The notes beneath the pieces were generated by a model. The model had not been told where the DNA came from and did no database searches. It saw nothing but the letters and a program-made list of their open reading frames with translations. A stretch of DNA of 64,000 bases from Chloroflexota bacterium (lineage in GTDB: Bacteria > Chloroflexota > Anaerolineae > B4-G1): the NCBI GenBank assembly GCA_012514315.1, contig JAAZAN010000006.1, positions 1 through 64,000 of the forward strand, read 5' to 3'. Below are positions 44-35,054 of the stretch, piece by piece. Numbering within the stretch: position 1 is the stretch's first letter; each line of letters opens with the position of its first letter. The position numbers and the translations under genes were made by a program.

Positions 44-1093
44 GTGAGACAAACACGCCTGTTGGTCAGCATAGTTGTCAGCGCGGTCAGCCTTGTCTTG
101 GCCGCGTTGGGCATCGATTGGAGCAGGGTGGGGCAGGTATTCGAGCAGGCCGACCTCAGATACCTCGCGCTGGCGACAATCGCTCTTCTGGGCTTTGTGG
201 TGGCCCGGTCTGTCCGTTGGCGGATTCTGCTCGGGGACCGTGTAGGTCTCCGAACCGTCTTCGCGGTGACGAACATCGGCTACCTGGTGAGCAACGTGTT
301 CCCATTTCGTCTGGGCGACCCTACGCGGGCCGTCATTGTGGCATTGGGCAGAACGGTGCCCTTGAGCACTGCGTTGTCGACGGTGGTCGTTGAACGGACG
401 CTCGACATGTTCGTCGTCGTTGTATTGTTAGGCGCAACGCTTCCTTTCGTGAGTGATGCAGGTTGGACGCGAGTAGCGGGTCTCGTCGGTGGGGGGGCGA
501 GCATTGTCGCACTGATCATATTCTTTGTCCTGGCACGCTGGCCGCAGCTGGGCCAGCGTGTCGTGCGGCACGTGACGGCGCACACACCGTCTCTGAACAA
601 GGATCGCTGGCACAGGGCGATTGATGGGGCGCTGGAAGGGTTTGCGGCGTTGGGTTCGCCGAGCCGACTGATTACCACAGCCGCATGGTCGCTGGTGGCG
701 TGGGCGTGCAGTGTCGGATTCTATCGTGCGGTGCTTCAAAGCTTCGTCGACTCACCAACCTGGCTTCAGGCAGCGTTTCTCACTTGTGCAATCAGTTTTG
801 CTGTGGCGTTGCCCTCATCGCCAGGTGCTCTGGGCGTCTTCCAGACAGTCGCCCGTTACATGCTTCAAGTGCCTTTCGGCATTCGCGGTGAACAAGCGGT
901 TTCAGTGGCTTTCGGGGCACATGCACTGATGTACGTCATGATGTGCCTATTGGGCATCCTCGGTCTGGCTCAACTTAATCTGTCTTTCGCCAGTCTGCGT
1001 CGGGCGGTTGGCTCAGCCGTGAGTCGCGTCGACGACCCCTCTAGCATCGCCCTGGTCTCCGAAGGCGTGTCGACCGTTTCGGGGGAGGAGTAG
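44..1093 (+). CDS. LPTi/UPF0104 flippase-like integral membrane protein
   Basis: A 349-residue polytopic protein with about eight hydrophobic segments. It belongs to the lysylphosphatidylglycerol synthase transmembrane-region family (UPF0104, PF03706-like): an RLGDPTRA motif near residue 92 is followed by ERTLD near residue 118, matching the family's R-G-[ED]..R and ER..D pattern. Stand-alone members are thought to act as lipid or lipid-linked glycan flippase-like proteins; the exact substrate is unknown. GTG is the start because a perfect -10 sits just upstream and leaves no room for a longer ORF. The next gene, a GT4 glycosyltransferase, follows after 7 bases, so the two probably share a transcript for surface glycolipid synthesis. 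Confidence 0.8.
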   Translation: MRQTRLLVSIVVSAVSLVLAALGIDWSRVGQVFEQADLRYLALATIALLGFVVARSVRWRILLGDRVGLRTVFAVTNIGYLVSNVFPFRLGDPTRAVIVALGRTVPLSTALSTVVVERTLDMFVVVVLLGATLPFVSDAGWTRVAGLVGGGASIVALIIFFVLARWPQLGQRVVRHVTAHTPSLNKDRWHRAIDGALEGFAALGSPSRLITTAAWSLVAWACSVGFYRAVLQSFVDSPTWLQAAFLTCAISFAVALPSSPGALGVFQTVARYMLQVPFGIRGEQAVSVAFGAHALMYVMMCLLGILGLAQLNLSFASLRRAVGSAVSRVDDPSSIALVSEGVSTVSGEE

Positions 1094-1100
1094 CATCGAT

Positions 1101-2270
1101 TTGCGCGTACTCATCGTACTGACCTACTATAGGCCGCACACGAGCGGACTCACGATATACGCTGAACGACTGGCGCGTGGCCTGGCTGCACTGGGACACG
1201 ATGTCACCATTCTGACATCGCGGTTTGATCGTTCCTTGCCTGTTGCGTCGGTTGAGAATGGCATCCACGTTGTGCGTGCCCCGGTTCTGTTCAGAGTCAG
1301 TAAGGGCGTTATTATGCCGACCTTTGGTTGGTTGGCCACGAGGCTGGTTCGCGAGGCAGATGTCGTGAGCGTGCACTTGCCTCAGTTCGATGCCGCCGGT
1401 GTGGCCGCCCGCGGTCGGCTGTTCGGGAAGCCCACTGTGTTGACGTATCATTGCGATCTGAAGCTTCCCAGAGGATGGTTCAACCGGGTGGTCAACAGTG
1501 TGGTCCGCGTGATGAACCACCTGAGCGGCGCCTGGGCTGATGCCGTGGTTGCCTATACCCAGGACTTCGCTGAAGCGTCGCCCTTCCTCCAGAAGTTCGG
1601 TAGCAAGGTGCGCGTAATCTCACCGCCTGTCGAGATCCCAGAGGTCGGGGCCGGTGCGGTGGCGGCATTTGCCAGGATGCATGACCTGGAGAATGCGCAC
1701 CCTGTGATTGGAATGGCCGCGCGCATGGCATCCGAGAAGGGTGTTGAGGTGTTGCTCACAGCCATGCCAGCGATTCTGGATCGGTACCCAAGCGCCCAGG
1801 TCCTATTCGCTGGACAGTTCCGAAATGTACTGGGCGAGGAGGCCTATGCCGACAGACTCAGGCCACTGCTTGAACGGCACAAGGATCATTGGCAGTTTCT
1901 GGGGGTCCTCAATCCTCAACAGATGGCCGCCTTCTACCCGAATGTCGACGTGATTGTCGTCCCCAGCCTGAACTCGACCGAATCCTTCGGCCTGGTGCAG
2001 GTCGAGGCGATGCTGTGCGGGACGCCTGCCATTGCGAGTGATCTGCCTGGCGTTCGGCAGCCGGTCCGTCAATCTGGCATGGGTGAGGTTGTCCCAGTGG
2101 GAGACAGCGACGCACTGGCAGAGGCCATTGCCCGCGTGGTCGACGCGCGAGCCAACTACCTCCGTCACCGCGATGAGATTGTCCGCCTCTGGAGCACGGA
2201 GAGCACCGCGTGGGACTACGAGAGTCTCTTCCAGGAACTACTGGGGGCTGATGGCGGCTATGTCGGATAG
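1101..2270 (+). CDS. GT4-family glycosyltransferase (GT-B fold)
   Basis: A 389-residue cytosolic glycosyltransferase. The N-terminal Rossmann half opens with RVLIVLTYYRPHTSG, usual for GT4 enzymes that act on lipid-linked acceptors. The C-terminal half carries Arg208 and Lys213 (nucleotide-sugar phosphate binding) and the EX7E motif at Glu294-Glu302 inside ESFGLVQVE. Specificity cannot be read from sequence, though mannosyl or phosphatidylinositol-type acceptors are common in this group. The start is TTG, with GGGGGAGGAG ending 10 bases upstream. It overlaps the following methyltransferase start, which indicates translational coupling. Confidence 0.88.
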   Translation: MRVLIVLTYYRPHTSGLTIYAERLARGLAALGHDVTILTSRFDRSLPVASVENGIHVVRAPVLFRVSKGVIMPTFGWLATRLVREADVVSVHLPQFDAAGVAARGRLFGKPTVLTYHCDLKLPRGWFNRVVNSVVRVMNHLSGAWADAVVAYTQDFAEASPFLQKFGSKVRVISPPVEIPEVGAGAVAAFARMHDLENAHPVIGMAARMASEKGVEVLLTAMPAILDRYPSAQVLFAGQFRNVLGEEAYADRLRPLLERHKDHWQFLGVLNPQQMAAFYPNVDVIVVPSLNSTESFGLVQVEAMLCGTPAIASDLPGVRQPVRQSGMGEVVPVGDSDALAEAIARVVDARANYLRHRDEIVRLWSTESTAWDYESLFQELLGADGGYVG

Positions 2271-3129
2271 GGGAGGATTGTCATCGGGTGGGGCGCACAT
2301 CGAATCGCCGCCCGTGTTGAACGGAGTCAGCGGCGCTGAGGACTGGCTCTGGCTCCATCTGAGGGACCTTCCGGCCTTCCGTGCGCTGCTGCGGGCAGTT
2401 GAGTCAAGCTTCTACGCTGACCTGCCGCTTGAGCGTCCGATTCTAGATCTGGGGTGTGGAGATGGGCACTTTGGATCAGTCACGTTCCCGAGGGGTTTGG
2501 ATGTAGGTTTCGACCCTTGGCTCAAGCCGCTTCGTGAGGCCACACGTCAGCGGGGCCACGCCTACAGGATGCTGTCTCAGGCCGATGGATCACAAATGCC
2601 ATTCGCTGACCACTCATTTGCCACGGTGATCAGCAACTCGGTGCTGGAGCATATCCCTGATGTAATGCCTGTGCTGCGGGAGGTCACAAGGGTGCTCCAG
2701 CCCGGTGGGCGCTTCTACTTCTGTGTTCCAGGCCCTATGTTCTTGCCCTATCTGTCGGTGGGACGATTACTCGATCAAGTGGGGCTGCGGCCTCTGGGAG
2801 ACGCATACAGACGTTTCTTCAACCGCATCTCGCGGCACCATCATTGTGACGGCGCTGAGGTCTGGGCCAGTCGTCTGACAGCATGTGGCCTGGTGCTCGA
2901 CCGAGCCTGGACGTATTTCCCGCGGAGCGCCGTCGCTGCGCTGGAATGGGGGCACTACCTGGGACTGCCCTCAGCCGTGTCGAAGGCACTTATGGGGCGT
3001 TGGGTGCTGGCGCCCGTGCGCGCCAACCTGAGGCTCACTGAGCTGCTTGTTCGGCCGGCGTTCAGGCGCTCGTTGGAAGCGAATACGGATGAGGGAGCCT
3101 ACCTATTTGTGGTGGCCCGCCGCCCATAG
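2251..3129 (+). CDS. class I SAM-dependent methyltransferase
   Basis: About 292 residues. The SAM-binding motif I, LDLGCGDGHFG, is at residues 65-75; a motif resembling post-II/III (SNSVLEHIPD...EVTRVLQPGG) follows, as in the Methyltransf_11 group. Such enzymes in glycan clusters commonly methylate sugars or lipid carriers; that is inference here. The frame is open upstream inside the GT4 gene, but sequence before ATG 2251 has no methyltransferase character. ATG 2260 is an equally possible start. The gene overlaps the GT4 gene by about 20 bases. The C-terminal 100 residues resemble lipid-acting methyltransferases with hydrophobic stretches. Confidence 0.8.
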   Translation: MAAMSDRGGLSSGGAHIESPPVLNGVSGAEDWLWLHLRDLPAFRALLRAVESSFYADLPLERPILDLGCGDGHFGSVTFPRGLDVGFDPWLKPLREATRQRGHAYRMLSQADGSQMPFADHSFATVISNSVLEHIPDVMPVLREVTRVLQPGGRFYFCVPGPMFLPYLSVGRLLDQVGLRPLGDAYRRFFNRISRHHHCDGAEVWASRLTACGLVLDRAWTYFPRSAVAALEWGHYLGLPSAVSKALMGRWVLAPVRANLRLTELLVRPAFRRSLEANTDEGAYLFVVARRP

Positions 3130-3216
3130 TGTGAGCGCGGTCTAGCCGCGACCTTTGGAAGCGTGCGAATCGCCAAGAGTAGAGTAGTCACAGACTAGCC
3201 GAGGTGTGTTGCGCTC

Positions 3217-5217
3217 GTGGACGAATCCACCCTGCTGCGTCGCCTGCTCCTGCTGATCGGGCTGACGGCGGCTCTACTGGGACAGTGCTTTCTCTTCCGT
3301 CGTGGCGAGGATTTCCGCGATGGGCTGCTGATGTGGGGCGCAGCAGTGCTCGCCTTCGCGCTGCTGCTTCGGAGCCGGCACTGGGGGAAGAAAGGGCAGC
3401 GCTCAGTGCCGGCGCCGAGGGCTGAATTTAGGCTCCGGCTTGTGCGCGGCGTGATCGCTACCCTCGGAGCCCTCGCGTCATTCATTGCGGCTGGGTCGGC
3501 AGTACGTCGACCTTCAGACCAAGACTTCAGCGATCTGCTGGCACTCTGGATAGTTGGATCGGTCTGGTTTGTTGTGGCGTTTGTCCCAGTTCCACCGCTT
3601 TCGAGTCTCCGGGTTCGCCTGGTCCGATGGTGCAGGACCCACGCCTGGGAAGGTATATTGGTCGTGACGCTGGTCACTTCGGCGCTGCTGGTGAGGAGCA
3701 TTGGACTAGAGCGGGCTCCAGCCAATCTGGGGGGTGACGAGGGGACGTGGGGATTGGAGGGCGCCGCGATGCTCACTGGCGGTCGCGTGGCCAATCCATT
3801 CTGCACGCGTTGGTTGGCATTTCCCAGCCTCTCATTCCTGGCCACGGGCATTGTGATGCGGCTCGCTGGCACAACTGTCTCGGGCGTACGTTTGCTGTCT
3901 GCCGTCGTGGGCGCGCTCTCGGTTGCAGGCGCCTTCGCGTTAGCGCGCGAGCTGTTTGGGAAGCGTGTCGCTCTCTATGCTACGGTATTCCTGGCCTTTG
4001 GCCATTACCACATCCACTACAGCCGACTGGCATACAATAACATCGGAGATGCGCTCTGTGTCAGTGCGGCGCTGTGGTTCCTCGTGCGGGGTCTGCGCCG
4101 TGCAAGGGCTATCGATTTCGCCCTCTCGGGCGCCGCCATCGGCCTGGGCTGGTATGGCTACTTCGGAGCGCGACTCATCGGCATCATAGTAGTTATCTAT
4201 CTAGCTGTGCGCGCCGCACGTGAGTGCTCCTTCCTCAATCGGTACGGGTGGCTGGTAGCTGTCATGGTTGGATCCGCGGCTGTTGTGGTGGCTCCCCTGA
4301 TGGTCCACTATGGCCTACACCCAGAGGAGTTCGCTGCCCGATCCAGTCAGGTCAGCATCTTCGGATCCGGCTGGTTGACGAATGAGGTCGCAGTGACGGG
4401 GCGGAGCGCGGCCGAGCTGCTTCTGGACCAGTGCTGGAAGTCGATATCTGCCTTTCACTACACGCTGGATCCCACCTTCATCTACAGGCCGACCGTACCG
4501 CTATTGGATGCCGCAAGTGGCATCTTCCTCGTGCTGGGCATCATCTGGTTCCTGGGCCATATGCGCTACCCGGGAAGCCAGTTGCACATGATATGGCTTG
4601 CGCTTGCGCTGGTTCTCGGCTGGGTCATCACCGAGAACCCTCCAGCCAGTCAACGTCTGGTTATCGTGACGCCATTGCTCGCGATTGCTGCAGGAGTTGG
4701 ACTGAACTGGGTGGTCATCAGCGCGGAAGCTCTCATCATCGGAGACAGACGACTATGGCATGGCCTCGCTTCGTTGTGTCTCGTCGCAGTTGGAGCGTGG
4801 AATGTACAGTACTACTTTCTCGACTACACGCCAACGCGTGTCTACGGGAATCCGACCGCGGAAGTGGCGACCGATCTGGCGCGTGCGCTGAATCAGCGAG
4901 CGGATGACTGCGTCGTGTACTTACACGCTTCACCGTTCATGTACTGGGATTTCGCCACAATCCAGTTCATGGCACCCGATGTGACGGGCTTCGACGTGCC
5001 AATGCCCGGCGACGACTCCTTACCGCTTGTCGAACCGGATCCGGTGCGCTGCAATCGATTCGCGTTCTTACCTGAGCGAATGGACGAGATGGCAGCGGTC
5101 CGCGAACGGCACCCGGGCGGAGTCCAGTGGACACTGTTCTCTGAGCACGATGGTCGCCCGATTCTCTATGTTTATGACGTGGCCGCGCGGCAGCAGCCTG
5201 CCGATACCGCTCAGTGA
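3217..5217 (+). CDS. GT39-like (PMT/ArnT-type) membrane glycosyltransferase
   Basis: A 666-residue polytopic protein. The first extracytoplasmic loop contains LGGDEGTWG with the acidic pair Asp174-Glu175, the position of the catalytic Asp-Glu in PMT_2/GT39 enzymes that use polyprenyl-phosphate sugars. About five extra hydrophobic segments (residues 1-165) precede the canonical domain, which is unusual. A soluble C-terminal domain of about 130 residues ends the protein, as is usual in bacterial relatives. It heads a run of four large membrane proteins spaced 13, 19 and 10 bases apart, so they are likely one operon. The GTG start has no strong Shine-Dalgarno sequence. Confidence 0.8.
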   Translation: MDESTLLRRLLLLIGLTAALLGQCFLFRRGEDFRDGLLMWGAAVLAFALLLRSRHWGKKGQRSVPAPRAEFRLRLVRGVIATLGALASFIAAGSAVRRPSDQDFSDLLALWIVGSVWFVVAFVPVPPLSSLRVRLVRWCRTHAWEGILVVTLVTSALLVRSIGLERAPANLGGDEGTWGLEGAAMLTGGRVANPFCTRWLAFPSLSFLATGIVMRLAGTTVSGVRLLSAVVGALSVAGAFALARELFGKRVALYATVFLAFGHYHIHYSRLAYNNIGDALCVSAALWFLVRGLRRARAIDFALSGAAIGLGWYGYFGARLIGIIVVIYLAVRAARECSFLNRYGWLVAVMVGSAAVVVAPLMVHYGLHPEEFAARSSQVSIFGSGWLTNEVAVTGRSAAELLLDQCWKSISAFHYTLDPTFIYRPTVPLLDAASGIFLVLGIIWFLGHMRYPGSQLHMIWLALALVLGWVITENPPASQRLVIVTPLLAIAAGVGLNWVVISAEALIIGDRRLWHGLASLCLVAVGAWNVQYYFLDYTPTRVYGNPTAEVATDLARALNQRADDCVVYLHASPFMYWDFATIQFMAPDVTGFDVPMPGDDSLPLVEPDPVRCNRFAFLPERMDEMAAVRERHPGGVQWTLFSEHDGRPILYVYDVAARQQPADTAQ

Positions 5218-5230
5218 TTCAGGAATCTCT

Positions 5231-8200
5231 ATGACCCCAACACCTAAGCACCGCAACAAGGTCTTCATAGCCGCCGCACTTCTTGTGATACTCGCTGTGG
5301 CCGCTTATCTTCGGCTCTACGGGCTCAATTGGGATGAGGGGGAGTGGATCCATCCCGATGAGGGGCATATGCGGATGGTGAACGCCGTGATCCAATTCCC
5401 CTCCGAACCTGCAGTCTACTTCGATACGCACAGATCACCTCTCAATTCGCTGAACAGTGGGATGCCCTATAGCTACGGCACCTTGCCCTTGTTCGCCACT
5501 CGATTGACTGGTGAGCTGATGAATCGGGCGTGCGAGTCGCCGACACAAGGCCTCGGGTGGGCTGTGACCGAGTTCCTGCTGGGCGGAGACGCGTCTCAGT
5601 GCGCCCCCGGCACGTTCACAGGCAGCCGGAGCGCCGTCGTCGGCCGTGCTCTCTCGGCTCTGGCCGATCTAGGCACCGTATTGCTGGTCTTCTTCATCGG
5701 CCGGCGTCTGTTGGGCGACCTCGCCGGTGTGGTTGCCTCTGGCTTGGCCGCATTCACTGCATTCACGATCCAGCAGGCGCATTTCTTCACAGTTGATAGT
5801 ATTGCCTGCTTCTTCACCACAGCCGTTGCCCTATTCTCGCTTCGTGCGAGTCACACCGGCGCGTGGCGCGACTTCATCCTGGCGGGTCTGATGGTTGGAT
5901 TAGCAGCCGGCTGCAAGATCGATGGAGTCTTCTCAGCAATGCTTGTGGCGTTGGCGGCAGCCAAGTACCTGTTCGACGAGCGAGCAGCGCGGTGGGCGCA
6001 GCGTGCCCCCACGATCCTCGGATCGCTCGTGTTGGCGGGAATCCTGGCGTTTGCCGCGTTCAGGTCTGTGCAGCCCTATGCGTTCGAGGGGCCGGGCTTC
6101 TTCGGTATACGCCCCAATCCCGAGTGGTTTGGTCGGCTGAGGCAAATTGTGGCTGAGCAGAGCGGGGAACTGGACTATCCCTCCGGGAGACAGTGGACCG
6201 ATCGAGCTCCGATCGTGTTCTCCTGGATGAATATGGTGGTCTGGGGCATGGGCCTACCGCTGGGACTGGCAGCCTGGGCGGGGTGGGCGGTGTCCGGATA
6301 CCGCCTGCTACGAGGTGACCGAACCTACCTGGTGCTCTGGGTCTACACTACGGCGATCTTCGTATACCAGTCGACTCGCTGGGTGAAGGCCATGCGCTAC
6401 ATGCTCTCACTCTACCCGCTCTTCGTGGTCTTCGCGGTTCTACTACTGGTAACGCTAGCTGTGCGAGCGACCCGGCGCTGGCAGCGTTGGGTGGTCATAG
6501 CCGTCTCCGGCGTCGTAGGCGCCGGCGCCATTATGTGGTCAGTGGCCATCTTCTCCATCTACCAGCGCCCGCATACGCGTCTGGCGGCGTCGCGCTGGAT
6601 CTACGAGAATGTTCCCGAAGGCTCGACAGTCGCCAATGAGCACTGGGACTGGGGACTACCACTCAGAATCGACGGACACAATCCGTTCAGCGGTATGTAC
6701 CACGGTATCGAGATGGAGAACTACAATGAAGATACGGTTCAGAAGCGTGAACAGCTCATCGGTTGGCTGGACGAGGCGGACTACGTGTTCCTCGCGAGCA
6801 ACCGATTGTATGCGTCGATCCCGCGGATACCCGCGCGGTACCCTCTCACAACCCTATACTACAGATCTCTGTTCAATGGGACACTGGGTTTCGAGCTAGT
6901 CGGGGACTTCACGTCCTATCCGGCCATCGGGCCGTTCCTGTTTCCTGATCAGGAGAACCCATTTCCCATGGTCGAGCCACGATACCGCTCGCAGTCAGTG
7001 CCATTTCGGATCAGCTTGCCGGCGGCTGAGGAGGCGTTCGGTGTGTATGATCATCCACGCGTGTTGATCTTCCGCAAGACCCATGCATATTCGCACGAGA
7101 GAGCGCGTGACCTGTTCTGGTCCGTTGACGTCGACCGGGCATTGCACGGACTCAAGGCCGTGGACGCCAGCGCAGCCCCCGGCATGCTGGAGTTTGACGA
7201 GCAGGTCTGGGCCGATCAGCGAGCTGGAGGAACCTGGGCAGAGATGTTCAGTCGAGATAGCCTTCTGAACCGATATCCCGCGCTTGCGGCGGTTGCGTGG
7301 TGGGCTGTTGTGTTAGGCCTCGGATGGATATCGGTTCCTATCGCATTCGTCGCTCTGCCCGATCTGGTAGATCGCGGATACGGACTCTCGAAAACGCTGG
7401 GTGTCCTGCTACTGGCGTACGGCACCTGGCTATGCGCCAGCGCGCGCGTGCTGCCCAACACACGGGGAACCATCGTGCGCATACTCATTCTCTTGGTCGC
7501 CGTCGGTCTGGGCGTGGGATGGATGAAACGCCGTGAGCTTGCGGCATATGTCCGGGAGCGGTGGAGGACGATTGTGCTCACCGAATTGTGCTTTGCCGGT
7601 CTGTACAGCGCATGGTTGGTGATCCGCCTCGTGAATCCCGACCTGTGGCACCCTGTTGTAGGCGGCGAGAAGCCTATGGACTTCGCTTACTTCAACGCCG
7701 TGCTGAAGACAACCTGGTTTCCAGCCTACAATCCATGGTACGCGGGCAGCTATGTCAACTACTACTACTTTGGTTTCGTCATCGTTGGAACACTGACGAA
7801 GCTCGTAGGTACAGTGCCTTCGGTCGCCTACAACCTGGCGATTCCTACGTTGTATGCGCTGACGGGAGTGGGCGCCTTCAGCGTCGCGTACAACCTCGCG
7901 CACGGCAGCATACGCGCCGGGCTGTCTTCTCTGGGTTTCGCCGTGCTGCTCGGCAACCTGGGGGTCGTGCGTCTGGTTCGAAACGGCCTGATCCGGTTGG
8001 GTGGAGGCCTTCCATTTCCGTCAAGGATACCAGGGTTCGCCGAGACGGTTGCGGCGCTCCGCGGCCTGTGGCAGATCATTGCGCACGGCGCGCGCCTGAC
8101 GTTCCGTCCCGAGTCGTGGTACTGGGACCCCACGCGAATCATCCCGGCTACTCCTGGCGAAGCTGGGCCGATTACGGAGTTTCCCGCCTTCACGTTCCTG

Positions 8201-9631
8201 TACGCCGACCTACACGCCCATATGATCGCTCTGCCGATCACTCTGCTAGCCTTGGGGTGTGCAGTGCAGTGGGTCCGCACCCATCGTGTCCATTGGAGCA
8301 GCTACGCAGTGGGTGCGCTGGCGATCGGAGCTCTGCGACCCACCAACACGTGGGACTACCCGACGTATCTGGTACTTGGCTGTGCGGCGATACTGCTGAG
8401 TAGCCTCACCAAGAGGCCCAACTCGGTCAGGCTGTGGCCGTCCCTCAAATCAGCGCTGCTGTCCTGCGGCGCCCTCGTGCTGATGACATCGGTGCTGTTC
8501 TTGCCATACACGCGCCACTATGCTCCTGGCTACACATCGGTGGACCTCTGGAGGGGATCGAGAACCCCATTCGACATCTACCTCTGGATGTGGGGTATCC
8601 TGCTGGCGCCCATCGTGACGCAACTCGTTCTGGAGATCAAGGATGCCGGACGTCAATGGTCGCGACGCTCCCTTCTAACCCAGTTACTCCTGGCCTTGGT
8701 GATCGCCTCGTGTGGGCTGGTCGCACTATTGACAGTCAACGGTGGTCCACCGCCGATATCCGCATTGGTTATCCCACTCGGAATTGCCTGTGCATGGCTG
8801 GTGGTCTCACACGACCGCCTGGCCGATCGGAGGCTGATGTGGTTTGCTGTTGGGAGTGGGCTGGCTCTGACTCTGATGGTTGAGTTGATCGTTCTCAGGG
8901 GTGACATCGGCAGAATGAACACGGTGTTCAAGTTCTATCTGCAGGTGTGGGTACTTCTATCTGTCGCTGGCGGCGTCTGTCTAGCTGCGATTGCAGACCG
9001 TTCACCGGGCTGGCGCTGGGACCGGGCGGCACTCTGGTGGGGCGGTATAGCGTTGCTGATCGCTGGGGGGGCGCTCTTCATCCCCATGGGAGTTCGAGCA
9101 AGGGCGATCGACCGAATCTCAAACCGGACCGGTCTGACGCTGGATGGCGCCGCCTTCATGGAACACAGCGAGGTGTTCGATGGCGATCCTTCGCGCGACG
9201 CTATCCCGATCCCTCTGCACGGTGACCACCTGGCCATTCGGTGGCTGCAGGACAACGTCATTGGTTCGCCCGTCATCATCGAGGGGCTGGGTCACCGCGA
9301 ATATCTGTGGGCCAACCGCGTCTCGATCTACACAGGCCTCCCTACGGTGATTGGATGGCGTTGGCACCAGGTGCAGCAGAGGGCGGCCTTGCCTGAAGCA
9401 ATGGTTCAGTGGCGCCGGGATGATGTGCGCGAGTTCTACTCAACGCTGTCAGTGCCTAAAGCGGTTCAGATCCTCGAACGTTACGAGGTGAAGTATGTCT
9501 ACCTTGGCGCATATGAACGTGCCTACTACGATCCACTAGGTCTGGGTAAGTTCGATGACATGGTAGATCGGGGGATCCTGCAACTGGTCTATGACGCCGA
9601 AGAAGTGCGCATCTACGAGTTCCGAAGCTAA
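5231..9631 (+). CDS. GT39 glycosyltransferase fused to a YYY (DUF2298) membrane domain
   Basis: A 1466-residue giant membrane protein with two homology units. Residues 1 to about 640 are a GT39/PMT_2-type unit whose first loop has WDEGEWIHPDEGH (Asp43-Glu44). From about residue 690 the protein is a YYY/DUF2298 unit with VGGEKPMDFAYFNAV, NYYYFGF near 842, FPAFTFLYADLHAHM near 980 and GRMNTVFKFYLQVW near 1227, then a periplasmic tail. The AGGA at 5221-5224 and ATG at 5231 set the start; the frame is open further upstream only inside the previous gene. The YYY family's reaction is not established, but extracytoplasmic glycosyl transfer is a reasonable inference. The next gene is a free-standing paralogue of the second half. 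Confidence 0.85.
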   Translation: MTPTPKHRNKVFIAAALLVILAVAAYLRLYGLNWDEGEWIHPDEGHMRMVNAVIQFPSEPAVYFDTHRSPLNSLNSGMPYSYGTLPLFATRLTGELMNRACESPTQGLGWAVTEFLLGGDASQCAPGTFTGSRSAVVGRALSALADLGTVLLVFFIGRRLLGDLAGVVASGLAAFTAFTIQQAHFFTVDSIACFFTTAVALFSLRASHTGAWRDFILAGLMVGLAAGCKIDGVFSAMLVALAAAKYLFDERAARWAQRAPTILGSLVLAGILAFAAFRSVQPYAFEGPGFFGIRPNPEWFGRLRQIVAEQSGELDYPSGRQWTDRAPIVFSWMNMVVWGMGLPLGLAAWAGWAVSGYRLLRGDRTYLVLWVYTTAIFVYQSTRWVKAMRYMLSLYPLFVVFAVLLLVTLAVRATRRWQRWVVIAVSGVVGAGAIMWSVAIFSIYQRPHTRLAASRWIYENVPEGSTVANEHWDWGLPLRIDGHNPFSGMYHGIEMENYNEDTVQKREQLIGWLDEADYVFLASNRLYASIPRIPARYPLTTLYYRSLFNGTLGFELVGDFTSYPAIGPFLFPDQENPFPMVEPRYRSQSVPFRISLPAAEEAFGVYDHPRVLIFRKTHAYSHERARDLFWSVDVDRALHGLKAVDASAAPGMLEFDEQVWADQRAGGTWAEMFSRDSLLNRYPALAAVAWWAVVLGLGWISVPIAFVALPDLVDRGYGLSKTLGVLLLAYGTWLCASARVLPNTRGTIVRILILLVAVGLGVGWMKRRELAAYVRERWRTIVLTELCFAGLYSAWLVIRLVNPDLWHPVVGGEKPMDFAYFNAVLKTTWFPAYNPWYAGSYVNYYYFGFVIVGTLTKLVGTVPSVAYNLAIPTLYALTGVGAFSVAYNLAHGSIRAGLSSLGFAVLLGNLGVVRLVRNGLIRLGGGLPFPSRIPGFAETVAALRGLWQIIAHGARLTFRPESWYWDPTRIIPATPGEAGPITEFPAFTFLYADLHAHMIALPITLLALGCAVQWVRTHRVHWSSYAVGALAIGALRPTNTWDYPTYLVLGCAAILLSSLTKRPNSVRLWPSLKSALLSCGALVLMTSVLFLPYTRHYAPGYTSVDLWRGSRTPFDIYLWMWGILLAPIVTQLVLEIKDAGRQWSRRSLLTQLLLALVIASCGLVALLTVNGGPPPISALVIPLGIACAWLVVSHDRLADRRLMWFAVGSGLALTLMVELIVLRGDIGRMNTVFKFYLQVWVLLSVAGGVCLAAIADRSPGWRWDRAALWWGGIALLIAGGALFIPMGVRARAIDRISNRTGLTLDGAAFMEHSEVFDGDPSRDAIPIPLHGDHLAIRWLQDNVIGSPVIIEGLGHREYLWANRVSIYTGLPTVIGWRWHQVQQRAALPEAMVQWRRDDVREFYSTLSVPKAVQILERYEVKYVYLGAYERAYYDPLGLGKFDDMVDRGILQLVYDAEEVRIYEFRS

Positions 9632-9650
9632 GGGGCACGGGGCGACGTAG

Positions 9651-12125
9651 ATGAGCGAATTGGAAATGGCATTTCGTTGGTACATCAGCCTCCAAGCTAT
9701 AGGGCTTGCAGGCTTGCCGCTCTGTCGGGTTCTCTTTCGGTTCCTTCCAGACAGAGGGTACGCAGCCTCCAAGGCATTGGGTCTTCTGATGGTGGGTTGG
9801 GTGTTCTGGCTCGGCGGAGTGCTGGGCTGGGTGCAGCCATCTCCCGGCGGCGTGGTCGTTGGGATTGTGGCCATTCTCGCTGCTGGGTCAGTCGCACACC
9901 TAAAGGGCACGCGAACGCCCGACACGCGCGGACGGCTCCATGATCTGCGTGACGTCATCGCGATCGAGATGGTCTTCGCTTTCATGTTCGTGGCCGCCTG
10001 CCTGGTCAGGAGCTGGATGCCCCGAATCGAGACGGCAGGCGGTGAGAAGTGGATGGAGATCGCGTTCCTGAACTCAGTACTGCGATCTGAATCCTTCCCG
10101 CCTCCGGACCCGTGGCTGTCTGGCTTCGCCATCTCGTACTACTACTTTGGGTATGTCCTCGTCGCCATGTTGGCCTGGCTCTCCGGTGTTCCGGCATCGA
10201 TCGCGTTCAATCTTGCGGTGGCCACGCTATTCGGATTGACGGGAATCGGCGCCTACGGTATTCTCCACAATCTGCTGCGTGTTCGCAAGTGTTCTGGATG
10301 CGGGTCCACCGCGCACGTAGGGCGTGTTCGCAACGCGGCGCTTCTTGCGCCACTGCTCGTCGCCGTCACGGGCAATCTGGAGGTAGTTCTAGAGATAGTG
10401 CACGCGCGCGGCATAGGACCAGCCAGCTTCTGGCAGTGGCTAGATATGAGGGGAATCGATGCAGTACCGCCGACTTGGCGGGACGGCGCGTGGGTACCCC
10501 AAGGCTTCTACTGGTGGTGGCACGCGTCACGCGTTGTTCGCGATCGGACCCCCTGGGGTGATGTTCAGGAGGTGATCGATGAGTTCCCGGCCTTCAGTTT
10601 CATCCTGGGTGACTTGCATCCCCACGTTCTCGCGCTTCCATTTGTCCTTCTCGCCATTGCGTTAGCGCTAAATCTGTTCGTCCACGCAAGTCAGTCGGGT
10701 CGCCGCGGACTTGTCCGGTCCTGGGACGTCACTGCTGGGGATTGCGTGCTGTACGGGATCTGTCTGGGAGCACTGGGATTCCTCAACACATGGGACTTTC
10801 CCATCTACCTGTTTCTGTTCGTGGTGTGCTTCCTGCTTGGCAATATTCTGTCCTGCACTCAACCCAGCGCGCTTGGGTTGGCGGCTGATACCACTTGGCT
10901 GACGGTCAAGGTCGTTCTTGTGGGTGTCCTGGCCTACCTGCCGTTCTGGTTGGGCTTTCAGTCCCAGGCGGGCGGCATCTTGCCAAATCTGTTCAATCCA
11001 ACTCGGTTGCCGCACTTTCTCGTGATGTTCGGCATCCAGTTGGTGATTCTCTTCCTCTTCCTCGTGCGAATGGTGCGTGCCCGAGGAGTCGGCTGGGGTC
11101 GGATCGCCGCAGTTGGTGGCGTGACATGGCTCTCAGTATCGGCGGCACTGGCGGCGGCTATCGGAGCGCTCGTGGTTGGAGTCCGGGTGGGCTGGCTGCC
11201 GGCTCGGGGCGTGCTGCGCTACATCGAAGCCTGGATCACTGGCGGGCCGATTCCGGGCCTCGAGGACGTGCCGGATGCGCACGCGGCCATCGGGCGTGGC
11301 CTGTTCGCCCATGTCTTGAATCCGTGGACAGCCCTGCTGCTGGCTGGTATGCTGGCCGCGGTACTTCTGCTCCTGAGGCGTGCCAAGGCGTCACCTGGGA
11401 CGTCGCATAGCGACGTGTTCGCGCTTCTGCTTGTGGCCGTTGGCCTGCTTCTGGTGGGCAGCGTGGAGTATGTCTATCTTCAGGACACGTTCGGTACCCG
11501 GATGAATACGGTCTTCAAGTTCTACTTTCAGACGTGGGTGCTCTGGTCATTGGCTGCAGGTTACGCACTCAGTAGCGGCCAGATCGCAGCCAAGACCTGG
11601 GGCGCCGGTGTTGTGGGCATTCTGGTCTTAGCTGGCCTGCTCTATCCGTGCTTGGCGATCCCTGCTCGTGCGCGCGAAAGCGGAGCCGGGTCTCCGACTC
11701 TGGATGGCCTGGCCTACCTCGAGGTGGCGCATCCTGAGGACCACGCGGCTATTGTGTGGCTGAATCGAACAGTGAACGGCTCGCCAGTGATACTGGAGGC
11801 GCCCGGAGACCGGTACGCCGCCTACACGTATTCCGGGCGTGTGTCGGCGCAGACGGGATTGCCCACGCTGTTGGGGTGGGGAGGTCACCAACTTCAGTGG
11901 CGCGGCGACTACGACGAGCCATCGCGGCGTGAGCCCGATATCGAGAAGCTGTACTCGACAACCGATCGGAACGAGACCTTGACCCTGCTGGACAAGTATG
12001 ATATAAGCTATGTCTACGTTGGGCCGCTGGAGCAGGAACGGTATCCCGCCAATGGGCTGGCGAAGTTCGGTGAGTTCATGGAGGTTGTCTACACGAATCC
12101 ACGAGTCACGATCTATCACCGGTGA
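9651..12125 (+). CDS. YYY/DUF2298 family membrane protein
   Basis: An 824-residue polytopic protein that parallels the C-terminal half of the preceding gene: AGGEKWMEIAFLNSVL, SYYYFGY near 162, DEFPAFSFILGDLHPH near 315, NTWDFPIYL and TRMNTVFKFYFQTWVL near 617, then a soluble tail ending in a YVYVG segment like its neighbour's. This set defines the family named for the Tyr-Tyr-Tyr motif in Chloroflexota and Archaea. A short Cys-containing insert (KCSGCG near residue 212) is absent from the paralogue. The tandem arrangement suggests duplication, with the two copies perhaps acting on successive steps of one surface glycan. Confidence 0.85.
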   Translation: MSELEMAFRWYISLQAIGLAGLPLCRVLFRFLPDRGYAASKALGLLMVGWVFWLGGVLGWVQPSPGGVVVGIVAILAAGSVAHLKGTRTPDTRGRLHDLRDVIAIEMVFAFMFVAACLVRSWMPRIETAGGEKWMEIAFLNSVLRSESFPPPDPWLSGFAISYYYFGYVLVAMLAWLSGVPASIAFNLAVATLFGLTGIGAYGILHNLLRVRKCSGCGSTAHVGRVRNAALLAPLLVAVTGNLEVVLEIVHARGIGPASFWQWLDMRGIDAVPPTWRDGAWVPQGFYWWWHASRVVRDRTPWGDVQEVIDEFPAFSFILGDLHPHVLALPFVLLAIALALNLFVHASQSGRRGLVRSWDVTAGDCVLYGICLGALGFLNTWDFPIYLFLFVVCFLLGNILSCTQPSALGLAADTTWLTVKVVLVGVLAYLPFWLGFQSQAGGILPNLFNPTRLPHFLVMFGIQLVILFLFLVRMVRARGVGWGRIAAVGGVTWLSVSAALAAAIGALVVGVRVGWLPARGVLRYIEAWITGGPIPGLEDVPDAHAAIGRGLFAHVLNPWTALLLAGMLAAVLLLLRRAKASPGTSHSDVFALLLVAVGLLLVGSVEYVYLQDTFGTRMNTVFKFYFQTWVLWSLAAGYALSSGQIAAKTWGAGVVGILVLAGLLYPCLAIPARARESGAGSPTLDGLAYLEVAHPEDHAAIVWLNRTVNGSPVILEAPGDRYAAYTYSGRVSAQTGLPTLLGWGGHQLQWRGDYDEPSRREPDIEKLYSTTDRNETLTLLDKYDISYVYVGPLEQERYPANGLAKFGEFMEVVYTNPRVTIYHR

Positions 12126-12135
12126 GGAGCATTAC

Positions 12136-13962
12136 GTGACCAGGGGTGAACTACCCTCAGACAAGAGGCGACTCAGACCCGAGACCCTGATATGGGGGCT
12201 TGTGGTGCTGCTGGCCGCATTCATCCGGTTCTACAGGATTGGGCAAGCCCCTCTGGACGTCACAGAGGCGTCGGTGGCGTGGTCGGCCTGGGAGGCCTCT
12301 CAGCGTGGCACAGCACCCTCTTTCGTTGGTCCCAGCCCGTTTCTGCTGGTTGTCACTTCAGGCATATTCGCCATCAGCGGGTGCGCCAGTGGGGCGCTTG
12401 CGCGGCTTTGGCCCGCAATTTCGGGAACCCTTCTGGTCGCAGTCCCTCTCCTCCTGCGGTCGCGCCTCGGCCGTGCGGGGGCACTGGGGACCGGGTTACT
12501 CCTGGCGATATCGCCGGTCGCGGTGACGGCGTCTCGCCGGCTGGATGGAGCTACCGGGGCGTGTCTAGGGGTTGCGCTGGCTGTGGCCGCGGCGCTGCGT
12601 TACATTGACACAGGACGCCGATCCTTGTTCGCGGTCGCTGCCTGCAGCCTCGGGCTGGCGCTTGCTTGCGGGCCCGCCCATGCATGGCAAATTGCAGTCG
12701 CGATGTCCGTGGCATTGATCGGTGCACTAGGCGTGCCAATGTTGGCTGAGCGCCAGGGCGGCACACCAGCGTGGCACAGCGGTATCGCGCAGGCACTGCG
12801 TTCAGACGCGCCAGGCGGAGCCCTTCTCGTCGCAGCATCTCTGGTCGTCTTTTCCACCGGCCTAGGCTGGAATCCTCGTGGCCTTAGCGCCGCGGCAAAC
12901 GCCTGGGTAGGTTGGGGCGGGGTGGTCGAAACGGCCGTCGTCTCGATCCGGCCTACTGTCGTGGTACTGGTATACGAGCCGTTGGTACTGTGTCTCGCTG
13001 TGGCGGGCATGCTATGCGCCTGGCGCGCAGGTAGCGCATTCCTCAGCGCCTTGGGCTATTGGGCTCTCGCGGCCTTCGCAGTGGGTGGGGTTGTGCCGTC
13101 AGCCGTGCCTGGCGCGGCGCTGCTTGTGTCACTGCCACTTGCATTTGTCGCTGGCGTGGCAGTAGATCGTATCGCCCGGTGGTCCAGCTGTCAAGAGAGC
13201 GGCGTGTGGCGTCCGGCCCTATACTCGCTCGCCACAGTCCTTCTGTGGGGGCACACCTATCTGGCACTGGCTCGTTACGCGCACTTGGGAACAATGCAGC
13301 CGTTGCTGCTGACTGCGCTGGCTATCTGCCTACAGGTCGTCCTCGGTCTCGCCTTCGCAACGCTGCTCAATGGGCGACAGGCCTTCCACGCGTTCAGCAT
13401 CGGCGCCTCTGCCGTTCTCGTGCTGTGGACGCTGGCCTCATCAATCAGGGCCGCCCACTTCCTGGCCGGCGATCCTCGTGAGTTCGTCGATGGTCGGTCC
13501 TCGGGTAATGTCGCCGAGCTTGTATCGACGTTGATGGAGATGTCGCTCGAGACGTATGGCGTGACTGATGGACTGCAGGTCGCAGTGGCCACCAGTGAGG
13601 CGCGCGAGGCGCTGCTCTGGCACTTGAGAGACTTCCACACGACGGTACGTGATGTAGGCGACGGTCGCCAGCTGTGGGACGTCATGGGCGCAGACACAGG
13701 CACGGACGTCGTTTTGACGGCGGCAGATTACGCCGCTGCTGCGCGACCGACAGACACCGGATATGTCGGCCATACGTTCCATCTTTCACAGTCCTGGAAT
13801 CCTGCGAACGCCGCTCCAAGCAGTATCTGGCCGCCTGACTTTTCTGCCTCCGCGTCGTGGTTACTGTTCCGCGAAGCGCCAGGCGTTGCGCCAGCGTGTC
13901 CGGTCTCGGTTTGGGTGCGACGGCCTCTTGTAGCGCCGGGACTGACTCCAGTAGAGCACTAA
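12136..13962 (+). CDS. GT39-like polytopic membrane protein, divergent
   Basis: A 608-residue protein with about 11 hydrophobic segments. Its N-terminus (FIRFYRIGQAPLDVTEASVA) aligns with the first loop of PMT_2/GT39 enzymes, but the usual adjacent Asp-Glu is altered to D-V-T-E, so catalytic competence is uncertain. GTG 12136 is chosen because GAGGAG lies 6 bases upstream and directly follows the stop of the YYY gene; the longer open frame only overlaps that gene. The C-terminal 150 residues are soluble and Ala/Thr-rich. It is the last gene of the left glycan operon and is followed by 484 bases without a gene. Confidence 0.65.
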   Translation: MTRGELPSDKRRLRPETLIWGLVVLLAAFIRFYRIGQAPLDVTEASVAWSAWEASQRGTAPSFVGPSPFLLVVTSGIFAISGCASGALARLWPAISGTLLVAVPLLLRSRLGRAGALGTGLLLAISPVAVTASRRLDGATGACLGVALAVAAALRYIDTGRRSLFAVAACSLGLALACGPAHAWQIAVAMSVALIGALGVPMLAERQGGTPAWHSGIAQALRSDAPGGALLVAASLVVFSTGLGWNPRGLSAAANAWVGWGGVVETAVVSIRPTVVVLVYEPLVLCLAVAGMLCAWRAGSAFLSALGYWALAAFAVGGVVPSAVPGAALLVSLPLAFVAGVAVDRIARWSSCQESGVWRPALYSLATVLLWGHTYLALARYAHLGTMQPLLLTALAICLQVVLGLAFATLLNGRQAFHAFSIGASAVLVLWTLASSIRAAHFLAGDPREFVDGRSSGNVAELVSTLMEMSLETYGVTDGLQVAVATSEAREALLWHLRDFHTTVRDVGDGRQLWDVMGADTGTDVVLTAADYAAAARPTDTGYVGHTFHLSQSWNPANAAPSSIWPPDFSASASWLLFREAPGVAPACPVSVWVRRPLVAPGLTPVEH

Positions 13963-17142: not shown

Positions 17143-19911
17143 TTATTCCTCGGGAGTGCTTACAGTGAGCGACCCCACCGGGATGTAGTCCGACACGGCT
17201 GATTCTGTGACCAGGCGCACCCTGATCTCATACTGGCCCGGTGAGACGAGCCCGTTGCTCTCGGTTACCTCCAGACGGATCGGATCACGCACCGCCTCGT
17301 CGCGACTCCACAGGCTGAACGGATAGTCAGCGGGGGCCCCCGCCGCTAACGTAATCATCGCGCCGTCGTCGCGGAAGAGCGCCACCTCGCGCTCAGTGCA
17401 TCCTGGTGCTGCCTCCTTGGCCCGCCAGTAGAGGTCCATCGACCACACCGCCGGAATCGTTATCTCGTTCGATTCACGCTGAGTGCCCACCAGGTAAACC
17501 GAGCAACCGTCAACACGCGGCTGGTCTTCAGTGGGCTGCGCACCGAGCTGTTGATCGGTCGGTGGACGAATCGGCGGCAGTACCTCGATGGTCGCGATGA
17601 CCTGACTATCACCCGCGAAAGCCCCAGAGTCGTCCAGGCGAAACAGACGCACACCCTGTTCCATGGAGTACAGACCGACGTTCAGATGGTACTGTCCGGG
17701 AGGCGTCCCGGGTTGCACGGTGACTCGGAAGCTATCAACCACGTACTTGTGGTTGACCCACCGCCTGGTTGGCAATCCGCCAGGATTCAGATGGTCCTCC
17801 TGTCCCCAGATGATGTGGAGCGGATTCGCGATGTGAACGAACGACTGGTAATTGGCCCCCACAGCGCCGATGGCTTGCCAATAGAGCGACACCGGCAACG
17901 AGTCGCCGGAGCGCACACGTGTCCTCGGGAGGTCGTACCCAAGAAGAGCGATCTGGTCTGAGAAGTTGACGTTCAGCGAGTGTTGAGCCGCCCACGCCTC
18001 GCCGGGCGGTGATGTGTAGCGTAGCCAGTCATCGTTAGGATCGATGAACCACGCCTTGACCAGTGCGAATGCGAGCCCGATGCCCGCCAGAATAAGGACC
18101 GTCCGGCTGCGTTCTGACAAGACTGCGTCGCCTGCGTCCACTTGCGCGCCGTGGCGCCCCTGGCGTGTGATCGCTCTCGCGCAGATCAGCCCGAGCAGCA
18201 CGCTACCCAACGCGGTCATCCCCCACCCCACTCTGCGGACGGGAGTATCTTCGAAGCGTACAACCACGTCGTGCTGGCCCTCAGGCACCCACACCGTGAT
18301 GAATCCCTCGGGATGAGCGATCTCGATTTCTTCAGTCTCACCATCAACGTACGCGCGCCACCCGGGGAAGTAGAACGTGAACAATCGCAGGACGAAGCGC
18401 TCTGTGGTGGTCACAAGAAACCGGTCGTGCAGCGGGCCGTGTTCGATGATGTCCACCGATGCGCCGTTGGGAAGCGATGCTCTGTTCACCTTATCCACTG
18501 GTCCGGGTGCACTGTAGGAAGCAATCAGGCTTTCCTGAGCTCGCATGCGGACCCTCGCTGCTCCTGTGGGCACGAAGTCGCCCGTAGACGTCGTCCCAAG
18601 CGCGTAGCTCTGTCGCTCCCACGCGATAATGTCCGCCGGTTCGGTCCCTCCGAAATCCGCTTTCCACATAGGAGGATACATCACTGGGAGGGCAAGGACC
18701 AGTGTAATGGTGAGAGCGCATGCCAGGATCGCGTCTCCGGACCTCTCCCGACCGTGCGTCAGGCTCCAGACACCGGCTGCTCCGAGGATCGCCAGCATCA
18801 GGTTTGCAGGCGCCAGAAGCCGCCAAGGGAACTGAAGGTAGGCCATCGGCTTGATCGCCTCCCATATCGGTGTCGATATGGGCAACATGAGGATGATCAG
18901 GGCGCCTGCCGCACAGGTGAGGAACGTGAGCTCACTCCGATGCCGCTTTCGCGCAGCGACAGAAACCCCCATTACCCCGAGTGTCCATTGGGCAAGGCCT
19001 AGATTGTAGACAAAGCGCGGGGCCGACGCACCAAGATCCATGATCCTCGAATGGCCGAACAGGTCGGTCAGACTGAGGAAATGCTCACGGAAGTCGAAAT
19101 GCCCTGGGCCCGTCACGTTGAGCTCAACTTGGCTGATCTCCAGGAGAGCCGGGAACCAGAAGAATGCACTGATGAGCATCGCCAGACCGATGGCCAGAGC
19201 TCCCCGACCGGCCCGAGCGCGTAGCGGTTCACCCGACAGCCACGCCCACAGCCAGTAGACACCGACCAACCCTGCGCCAACCAGTCCCATCAGGTTGTGA
19301 CTGAAGACCAAAGCGGCCAGGCACAGGGATGCAAGAGCCAGGCTACCAGTGCGCCCATCACGGTAGAGGATCCGGTGAAACGCGTAGAATACCCATGGCA
19401 AGATGCAGATCGCGAAGTGCTCGGCGAGATCGCCACGCGCGTGAGGATCAATGAAGACAATGTATGGTGCAAACGTATACATACCCGCTGCGACAAGCGC
19501 TGGGCCTGCCCCCCAGCGCTCCCGGCTCCACAAGTAGACGCCCGTTGAGGCGAGGACGAGCCCGAGCACAAACACAGCCTTGACGGCCGCGACGACATCC
19601 TGCGCAAACACGGTCTCGATCAGGTGGGCCAAATAATAGGTCAGTGGGGCATAGTAATTGAAGATGGGATAACCGTAGCCCAGATACAGGTTCGGGGCCC
19701 AACGCGGATAGAACGCCCCAGCGCGCAGTGCGTGGCCCAGCTCCGCTGCTCGGTAGATGTGCAGCTCGGCATCTGTACCGCGGGGAAGACCTGGCCGGGT
19801 AAGGAAAGGACCCGCAGCCACCAGCGCCAGTCCGATGGCAGCCAGCAGGCCGAGCGTCGATGGTTCGATGAGTCGGCCGAGACGTCGGCCTGTGCTAGAC
19901 GCTCTTTGCAT
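17143..19911 (-). CDS. PTPS-related-domain polytopic membrane protein, probable glycosyltransferase
   Basis: About 922 residues. The N-terminal membrane part carries the 6-pyruvoyl-tetrahydropterin-synthase-related domain (PF10131-like): [40 protein letters not shown] and [10 protein letters not shown], the last three typical of a GT-C-like family despite its name. About 12 membrane segments precede two extracytoplasmic beta-rich regions (about residues 430-530 and 640-920). ATG 19911 is chosen because the longer frame extends further into sucD; even so it overlaps sucD by 17 bases. Activity is unproven; transfer of polyprenyl-linked sugars outside the membrane is inferred from fold similarity. 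Its link to sucCD seems positional only. Confidence 0.78.
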
Positions 19912-20776
19912 ACTGAGCAACCAACTCTGCGACCTCGTCCGGGTATCGCGCGACACGAACGCCTGCGTCGATCAGCGCGCCGATCTTCCTGTCGGCTGCG
20001 CCCGAGTCCCCCTCGATGATCGCCCCAGCATGTCCCATTCGTGTACCCGGCGGTGCACTGCGGCCAGCTACGAAGGCGGTCACTCGCTTCTGCATCGACA
20101 TCGCGATGAAGTCGGCGGCGAGTTGCTCCTCCAGGCCCCCGATCTCCCCAATGAGCACCACCTGCTTCGTCTCCGGATCTGCTTCGAACATGCTCAGGAT
20201 CTCGGTGAAACGGGTTCCGACCACGGGATCTCCGCCGATGCCGATGCACGTGGATTGACCTAGCCCCCGCGAAGTGAGCGCGTGCACGATCTCATACATC
20301 AGGGTGCCTGATCGAGATACAACGCCAACCGATCCCGGTCTTGCGATGCTGCCCGACATGATCCCTACACTGCTTCTGCCTGGCGACACGATCCCCGGCG
20401 TATTCGGTCCAATCAGTCTGGTTTCTCCCTGAGCCATGAATGCGCACAGCCGGACCATGTCGAGCACGGGAATCCCCTCGGTAACGCACACGACCAGTTC
20501 GATGCCTGCATCTGCTGCCTCCAGGACAGCGTCAACTGCCGCTGGAGCTGGCACGAACGCGACTGACGTGTTAGCTCCAGTCTGCTGCACAGCCTGCAGG
20601 ACGGAATCGAACACCGGTATTTGCGAATCGCCGACGAGACATCCACCCTTTCCAGGGGTGACGCCCGCGACAACGTGCGTACCGTACGCGCACATCTGTT
20701 CAGTGTGGAATCTGCCTTCTCGCCCGGTGATGCCCTGCACCAGAACCCGGGAGGTCTCATCGACTAACACTGCCAT
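19895..20776 (-). CDS. sucD: succinate-CoA ligase (ADP/GDP-forming) alpha subunit
   Basis: A 293-residue alpha subunit of succinyl-CoA synthetase, of usual length. The N-terminal CoA-binding domain contains [33 protein letters not shown] and later IGPNTPGI. The phosphorylated histidine is in [10 protein letters not shown] near residue 246. With SucC it interconverts succinyl-CoA and succinate in the TCA cycle while making NTP. Its ATG overlaps the stop of sucC by one base (TGATG), indicating coupled translation. A malate-CoA ligase alpha subunit (MtkB) is a close relative and cannot be fully excluded. Confidence 0.93.
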
Positions 20777-34888: not shown

Positions 34889-34953
34889 ACGGCGAGCGAC
34901 TCCTGCAGAGGCCAACGCAAGCGGCGCCGCCTGAGCGCCTCCTTGGTCCGTGC

Positions 34954-34982
34954 TTGTCCATCAAGCGGTGACGCGGTATCAT
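34954..34982 (+). promoter_or_regulatory. promoter for the MurJ-like gene
   Basis: TTGTCC (34954-34959), a 17-base spacer and TATCAT (34977-34982). The predicted start near 34989 coincides with an in-frame ATG, so either a leaderless product starts there or ATG 35055 is used. Confidence 0.45.
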
Positions 34983-35054
34983 TCGCCTATGCTGGCGGCG
35001 GTCTGTTTCTCTACCGTCTGCGAGCTCCAGCTGGCTGTATTCGATTGGAGGTCC

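Follow-up and report, generated by a model that had tools for sequence, protein, structure and literature searches.

A two-unit membrane protein carrying a YYY (TIGR03662/DUF2298) domain and its free-standing paralogue in Chloroflexota: putative GT-C glycosyltransferases

The window analysed here is a 64,000-nucleotide stretch of a Chloroflexota bacterium (Anaerolineae, B4-G1; assembly GCA_012514315.1, contig JAAZAN010000006.1, positions 1 to 64,000 of the forward strand). It begins with a run of seven genes, from position 44 to 13962, all on the plus strand, with gaps below 90 nt and with two starts chosen by us, in the following order:

44..1093, plus strand: PF03706/TIGR00374 flippase-like protein (164.5 bits), the first gene of the run
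1101..2270, plus strand: GT4 glycosyltransferase (PF00534, 96.2 bits)
2272..3129, plus strand: methyltransferase (PF08241, 62.9 bits), start chosen in a frame open from 2032
3217..5217, plus strand: second PMT_2-type membrane protein (66.2 bits)
5231..9631, plus strand: fusion gene, a PMT_2/GT-C unit joined to a YYY (TIGR03662/DUF2298) unit, 1466 residues (P0001), translated without a stop
9651..12125, plus strand: free-standing YYY gene, 824 residues (P0002), 19 nt after the fusion gene
12130..13962, plus strand: Agl23-like membrane protein (TIGR03663, 95.6 bits), start chosen in a frame open from 12010

The ATG at 5231 is likewise a choice, as the frame of the fusion gene is open upstream to a TTG at 5027. 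The protein it encodes can be divided into the following parts:

5231..7228, plus strand: N unit (residues 1-666; PMT_2, 47.5 bits), with a predicted GT-C fold and a C-terminal globular domain
7229..7270, plus strand: conserved linker GGTW..F......N between the units (residues 666/667-680)
7274..7525, plus strand: three additional helices with which the fused YYY unit begins, ahead of its GT-C core (about residues 682-765), as aligned to the helices of the P0002 model
7283..9622, plus strand: fused YYY domain (residues 685-1464; TIGR03662, 537.5-540.3 bits)

Other envelope genes were observed in the window. A 937-residue PTPS_related (PF10131) membrane protein is encoded close to the YYY run (17143-19956, minus strand), and a second envelope-glycan run is found at 34950-40564 (plus strand), composed of MurJ (34950-36554), an O-antigen ligase-like protein (36368-38449), a GT2 (38439-39452) and a GT4 (39446-40564) glycosyltransferase. 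The gene at 30039-32768 (plus strand) codes for a 909-residue fusion of a SEDS protein (FtsW/RodA/SpoVE, residues 116-448) with a class B PBP (dimerisation domain, and transpeptidase at 612-848). Spanning matches to this fusion, in frames of 807-935 residues, were present in at least 7 of 61 genomes (G005, G011, G018, G028, G046, G055 and G064), and the two parts are in separate adjoining frames in, for example, G019 and G081, among the matches listed for the same 61 genomes.

Both YYY units score well above the TIGR03662 cut-off of 300.25 bits (556 bits for P0002), and DUF2298 (PF10060) matches P0001 with 384.6 and P0002 with 398.4 bits. The alignment of the second half of the fusion with the 824-residue protein, which the first-pass annotation had called for, identified them as homologous: BLASTP aligned residues 687-1145 of P0001 with P0002 at 29% identity over 492 columns (6e-39) and residues 1217-1463 at 37% over 252 columns (2e-34), a sequence similarity that is far above chance. 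The same motif order had been described for the two units, and the order holds, but NYYYFG occurs in this form in the fusion alone and is SYYYFG in the free copy; the shared YYYFG is located at residues 844-848 of P0001 and 163-167 of P0002, and the YYYxG motif is the signature of TIGR03662. The TIGR03662 record already covers proteins with one copy of the domain as well as long proteins in which an N-terminal region is combined with two copies and TPRs. The window differs from these long proteins in having one YYY unit behind an N unit and a free copy adjoining, and no TPR was found in P0001 by Pfam profile search.

The fusion had been presented as a rare type of membrane protein, and its distribution does not bear this out. 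Of 301 Chloroflexota genomes, at least 193 have a TIGR03662 match that exceeds the cut-off, and a control search gave a match in the genome of the archaeon Haloferax volcanii as well. We constructed a profile of the junction from 12 sequences, in all of which G667, T668, W669, F673 and N680 of the linker are invariant, and ran it on 121 genomes at least 90% complete, 81 of which gave a match among those listed. In at least 64 of the 121 genomes, the window's own included, one match extends across the junction of N unit and YYY unit in a single frame, and in 6 more (G012, G128, G024, G061, G094 and G003) two pieces were matched in one frame, among the matches listed. The mapping across the phylum that had been proposed thus describes a common fusion, present in at least 70 of 121 genomes, with a domain already covered by TIGR03662. 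Partial matches were observed in G026 and G016, and no junction-spanning match is among those listed for 9 of the 81 genomes, including three with separate N-unit frames (G148, at locus L099, G022 and G050). For G042, G059 and G108 there is no entry among the matches listed, and their best matches are weak. Frames longer than 2000 residues, a size typical of proteins that contain the YYY unit twice, occur in 13 of the 70 fusion genomes, among the matches listed, and the two such proteins inspected (L072 and L077) have C-terminal TPRs. At L099, the N unit is a gene of its own, of 619 residues, beside one free YYY gene, and G148, the genome of this locus, has a single TIGR03662 match among those listed; with a separate N unit and no fused YYY, the fusion appears dispensable in this genome.

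The possibility that sequencing or assembly had joined two genes has some grounds, since the window genome is in 354 contigs with 6.74% contamination and one relative (L052) has broken frames in both the fusion and the free gene. Nevertheless, the junction is free of stops in all 64 spanning matches among those listed, single-contig genomes (G005, G112 and G118) among them, which excludes an artefact concealing a stop between the halves and leaves an erroneous joining with a practically negligible probability. Together with the uninterrupted frame of 1466 residues, this establishes the fusion as genuine.

The first-pass annotation regarded the second half of the fusion as duplicated in the next gene. 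We calculated a tree of 107 YYY domains (IQ-TREE, quick search, LG+G4), leaving out domains shorter than 600 residues and one locus (L064) that is a copy of another (L037). Two sequences cut at one end (L038_3 and L039_3) were labelled as fused, and one in an over-long open frame (L069_4824) as free, before the tree was made, and the two YYY copies in each of the L078 and L079 proteins were separated manually. A branch with 100% SH-aLRT support separates 47 fused and 8 tandem sequences from 51 free ones and the Pseudobutyrivibrio outgroup, in a quick-search tree whose root is unsure and whose end branches are long (median 0.52). A DUF2298 gene of a Pseudobutyrivibrio xylanivorans plasmid (L104:7941-10196) is located among polysaccharide genes. 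Since all fused units are parted from all free ones by this branch, the neighbouring gene is not a recent copy: paralogy stands, a recent duplication of the second half of the fusion is excluded by the split, and the free YYY protein is, judging from the tree, an ancient paralogue kept separately from the fused one.

The N unit had been labelled GT39, a designation that is imprecise. PMT_2 matches residues 134-271 of P0001 with 47.5 bits, above a cut-off of 26.1, and the unfused relative at L099 matches PF02366, the PMT family, at 38 bits, but P0001 itself gave no PF02366 match at E<=0.001. Two Anaerolineae N units (L041:598-5961 and L048:335-5632, the second from Bellilinea) have some 250-270 additional residues ahead of the C-terminal part, a segment with no Pfam match in the former and a DUF4082 match below cut-off in the latter.

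Structural models were obtained with AlphaFold from alignments of 40 YYY and 16 N-unit sequences, taken from 27 loci and the window, excluding truncated or frame-broken sequences (L052, L054, L058, L060, L061 and the free gene of L056). The free YYY model has a pLDDT of 88.6 and a pTM of 0.93, and the model of residues 1-700 comprising the N unit a pLDDT of 76.4 and a pTM of 0.81. Foldseek retrieved four matches at E<=0.001 for the free YYY unit (TM-scores 0.28-0.51), namely two oligosaccharyltransferase (OST)-bearing translocon chains, DPY19 and AftA; we take the translocon chains to be STT3, as we do chain A of yeast OST, which was the first of the VIA-align matches (Z 15.5, rmsd 7.0 over 462 residues). 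It was followed by ALG12 (Z 15.2, rmsd 3.8 over 323), PMT (14.2), AftA (14.0), DPY19 (14.0) and ArnT (12.9). By chance, helical bundles can give VIA-align Z scores as high as about 13 to 14, close to the values of the free YYY model, and the uniformity of the match list carries more weight for this model than single Z values: apart from one GPI-transamidase chain, the best 41 entries are all either GT-C enzymes or C-terminal domains of AglB. An AglB-like domain is predicted at the C-terminus of the free unit:

11712..12122, plus strand: C-terminal globular domain of the free YYY protein, AglB-like (3vu0, Z 10.5, rmsd 2.6 over 114)

The N unit model aligns with AglB (3waj, Z 29.3), ALG12 (27.6), ArnT (26.6) and Pmt4 (9i5l, Z 25.4, rmsd 3.6 over 389), and the best 50 matches listed are all of the same kinds, GT-C enzymes, the GPI-transamidase chain or the AglB C-terminal domain. 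Judged from the models, the N unit and the free YYY unit have a GT-C fold, as the first-pass annotation had proposed for these units, and that of the fused YYY unit is deduced from its homology to the free one. Sequence searches against solved structures gave no credible relative (best E 0.13 and 0.7). A profile-profile match between N unit and YYY was rejected as uninformative, as it covers only 25 residues at the linker end that are common to both alignments.

We identified residues conserved in each type of unit, mapping the putative active sites by motif order and model helices:

5351..5362, plus strand: HPDE of the N unit (residues 41-44), in what the model gives as its first outer loop, candidate catalytic acid, kept in 47-48 of 50 N units
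6395..6400, plus strand: R389-Y390 of the N unit, putative lipid-phosphate contact (R in 50/50, Y in 49/50)
7667..7669, plus strand: E813 of GGEK in the fused YYY unit, candidate catalytic acid (47/47 fused sequences)
8207..8221, plus strand: D993-x-H995-x-H997 of the fused YYY unit, candidate metal or substrate site (D, H and H each in 47/47)
8912..8938, plus strand: R1228 and MNTVFKFY of the fused YYY unit (R1228, N1230, F1233 and K1234 each in 47/47)
10044..10046, plus strand: E132 of the free YYY unit, candidate catalytic acid (E in 49/51 free sequences, with one D and one gap, in the truncated sequence of L058)
10611..10625, plus strand: D321-x-H323-x-H325 of the free YYY unit (D in 46/51, with four C and one T; H in 51/51 and 50/51)

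Other conserved positions are D189 (46 of 50), W456 (50) and W472 (49) in the N unit and, in P0002 numbering with counts for 51 free and 47 fused sequences, respectively, R617 (51 and 47), K623 (49 and 47), E716 (51 and 47) and H746 (50 and 47). An acid is conserved in what the model helices place as the first outer loop, E132/E813 in YYY and D43/E44 in the N unit. As mapped from the models, both kinds of unit have a common order: an acid where the first outer helix begins, a second, polar motif before a core helix, an arginine starting the last-but-one helix and then the globular domain. This is the order of motifs in GT-C enzymes.

The four free copies with a cysteine in place of D321 (L082, L092, L098 and L099) are all those of one family (f29), and their C-x-H-x-H sequence would be in keeping with a metal site. 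An additional free copy, L088_4276, departs at three of five sites, E132, D321 and H325 being replaced by D, T and F, respectively. Constant differences distinguish the two types, with W750 in all 51 free sequences and Q at this position in 46 of 47 fused ones, and a tryptophan at position 806 of P0001 in 47 of 47 fused sequences; these suggest that fused and free units may act on different substrates.

One reading of the fusion is that the N unit alone is catalytic and the fused YYY unit a degenerate scaffold. Among the eight tandem sequences, the first copy of L077 (L077:5992-12990, minus strand), on a branch of length 2.26, is without most of the sites and is perhaps a decayed unit, and at least three second copies differ at E716; moreover, G148 is without a fused YYY among the matches listed, and that of G153 (L096) is interrupted by a TAG in frame, which falls within the YYY domain and not at the junction. 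Against this, the E, D, H, H, R and K positions are kept in all 47 single-fused sequences, and we consider a scaffold role very improbable. Residue conservation in both halves is compatible with the two-sugar enzyme that had been suggested, and nothing observed points to processivity, the other activity put forward, which is thus unsupported.

The three additional helices of the YYY unit, at residues 3-28, 37-58 and 65-86 of the P0002 model, allow a proposal for its topology. The mean number of lysine and arginine residues in free/fused sequences is 2.37/1.77 after helix 1, 0.57/1.13 after helix 2 and 3.90/4.55 after helix 3, which, with the helices taken from the model, is consistent with an N-terminus outside. 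The YYY unit would then begin and end on the outer face, with the three helices preceding the GT-C core. With an odd number of extra helices and an outer C-terminal domain, a YYY unit may follow another GT-C unit, and such an outside-outside topology would account for proteins with one N and one YYY unit as well as for those with one N and two YYY units.

Concerning the genomic context, fusion and free YYY genes are both present in 41 of 66 loci, in all 41 on the same strand (the loci having been picked in part for containing both), and the fusion is upstream in 40, the exception being L069 with its over-long frame. An Agl23-like gene is found directly behind the free YYY gene in 33 of the 49 loci with 1.5 kb of sequence behind it, and not in the other 16. 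In the window this gene is Agl23-like only, scoring 95.6 bits with a TIGR03663 cut-off of 126.25, and the genome has a copy above cut-off on another contig (C112), outside the window. TIGR03663 exceeds its cut-off in 79 of the 81 genomes with a junction-profile match and in none of the other 40, among the matches listed and in genomes that are related and not independent; weaker matches were listed for G108, G148 and 22 of the 40 genomes with no YYY junction match.

As both kinds of unit have a GT-C fold, judging from the models, the simplest account is that sugars on flipped polyprenyl phosphate are used in turn. We regard it as probable, by a small measure, that the N unit and the fused YYY unit, in one polypeptide, and the free YYY unit are three outer-face GT-C transferases, two of them covalently coupled, of one pathway glycosylating the envelope or surface proteins. 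A sugar would be attached to polyprenyl phosphate within the cell and then brought to the outer face, with the Agl23-like protein, the PF03706 protein or both as the probable flippases; each unit would then pass its own sugar, in turn, to a common acceptor, a lipid-linked or protein-linked glycan, and the fusion would keep two successive transferases next to each other. In this explanation we infer the catalysis, the donor and the acceptor, the sequence of steps and the topology.

A different assignment, in which protein receives a complete glycan en bloc from its lipid carrier through at least one of the units, standing in for a missing STT3/AglB, is suggested by the top structural matches, which include full-length STT3/AglB with the AglB-type C-terminal domain. 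Strong STT3 matches occur in only 1 of the 121 genomes (G082, three matches of 68-93 bits), which has no junction-profile match, and likely O-glycans were proposed from densities for a Chloroflexota archaellin (PMC12488501). However, neither P0001 nor P0002 has an STT3 (PF02516) match at E<=0.001, ALG12 and PMT fit with similar Z and lower rmsd, and the Agl23-type neighbours point toward single-sugar donors. Besides, the scarcity of STT3 is an observation and not a test, with weak matches (up to 32.3 bits, over a low cut-off) in 13 other genomes. The fold of STT3/AglB, C-terminal domain included, is present in the models, and fold alone is not membership. We assign the YYY units to TIGR03662, and the N unit together with the free YYY unit to the GT-C fold, rather than to OST or Agl23, and consider en bloc transfer unlikely, yet deserving attention. 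An archaellin-type O-glycan is a possible product of the locus, in a comparison with a strain not linked to the locus here.

Nor does fold prove function, and Agl23 itself works as a flippase, even though proteins of the TIGR03663 type score as PMT relatives do. Haloarcula hispanica Agl23 is described as a putative hexose-phosphate-dolichol flippase, and the purified protein supported translocation of the lipid-linked oligosaccharide M5GN2-PP-Dol in liposomes (PMC11182771). TIGR03663 is named after Agl23, and the likeness of the downstream gene to this protein is through its profile score, below cut-off. The YYY units could accordingly be imagined as GT-C-fold flippases of lipid-linked glycans or as accessory subunits, an idea that the near-constant presence of TIGR03663 alongside YYY (the 79 of 81 genomes above) would accommodate. 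The near-invariant polar set in what the models place as outer-face loops and the AglB-like C-terminal domain favour catalysis instead, which makes a flippase or accessory role quite improbable, and transfer of single sugars by each unit remains our preferred reading. We would advance with much doubt a broader proposal, in which a modular, chained outer-face line (N-Y, N-Y-Y-TPR and free Y proteins, with termini outside) together with an Agl23-type flippase would replace the classical oligosaccharyltransferase, the D-x-H-x-H of YYY, or C-x-H-x-H in one family, serving where STT3 has its acidic second motif.

In comparison with characterised GT-C enzymes (STT3/AglB, ALG12, PMT, ArnT and AftA), the modelled fold is alike, as is the C-terminal domain in the case of STT3/AglB, whereas YYY adds three N-terminal helices and the DxHxH motif and has no credible sequence match. 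The archaeal arCOG00563 (HVO_2052) was described as distantly related to PMT/STT3 OST and as adjoining a PF03706 protein (arCOG00899) and an AglD-like glycosyltransferase, and a flippase role in archaeal glycosylation was argued for PF03706 proteins (PMC5898192). The run in the window likewise contains PF03706 and GT4 genes, a likeness that we take as a lead only; the word DUF2298 is absent from the text of that article. In the open-licence literature, searches found no functional study of the YYY family and neither of the names TIGR03662 and Chlor_Arch_YYY, with DUF2298 appearing in a gene list, and works on GT-C classification, fused GT-C enzymes and Chloroflexi envelope glycosylation contained nothing on the family. 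What this work adds is the separation of fused from free types by the tree and the modelled GT-C fold.

The fusion is thus a matter of phylum-wide biology and not an oddity of one window. The placement in the GT-C fold, the named residues and the recognition of two ancient, Agl23-linked types would turn an anonymous DUF into testable candidate enzymes of surface decoration.
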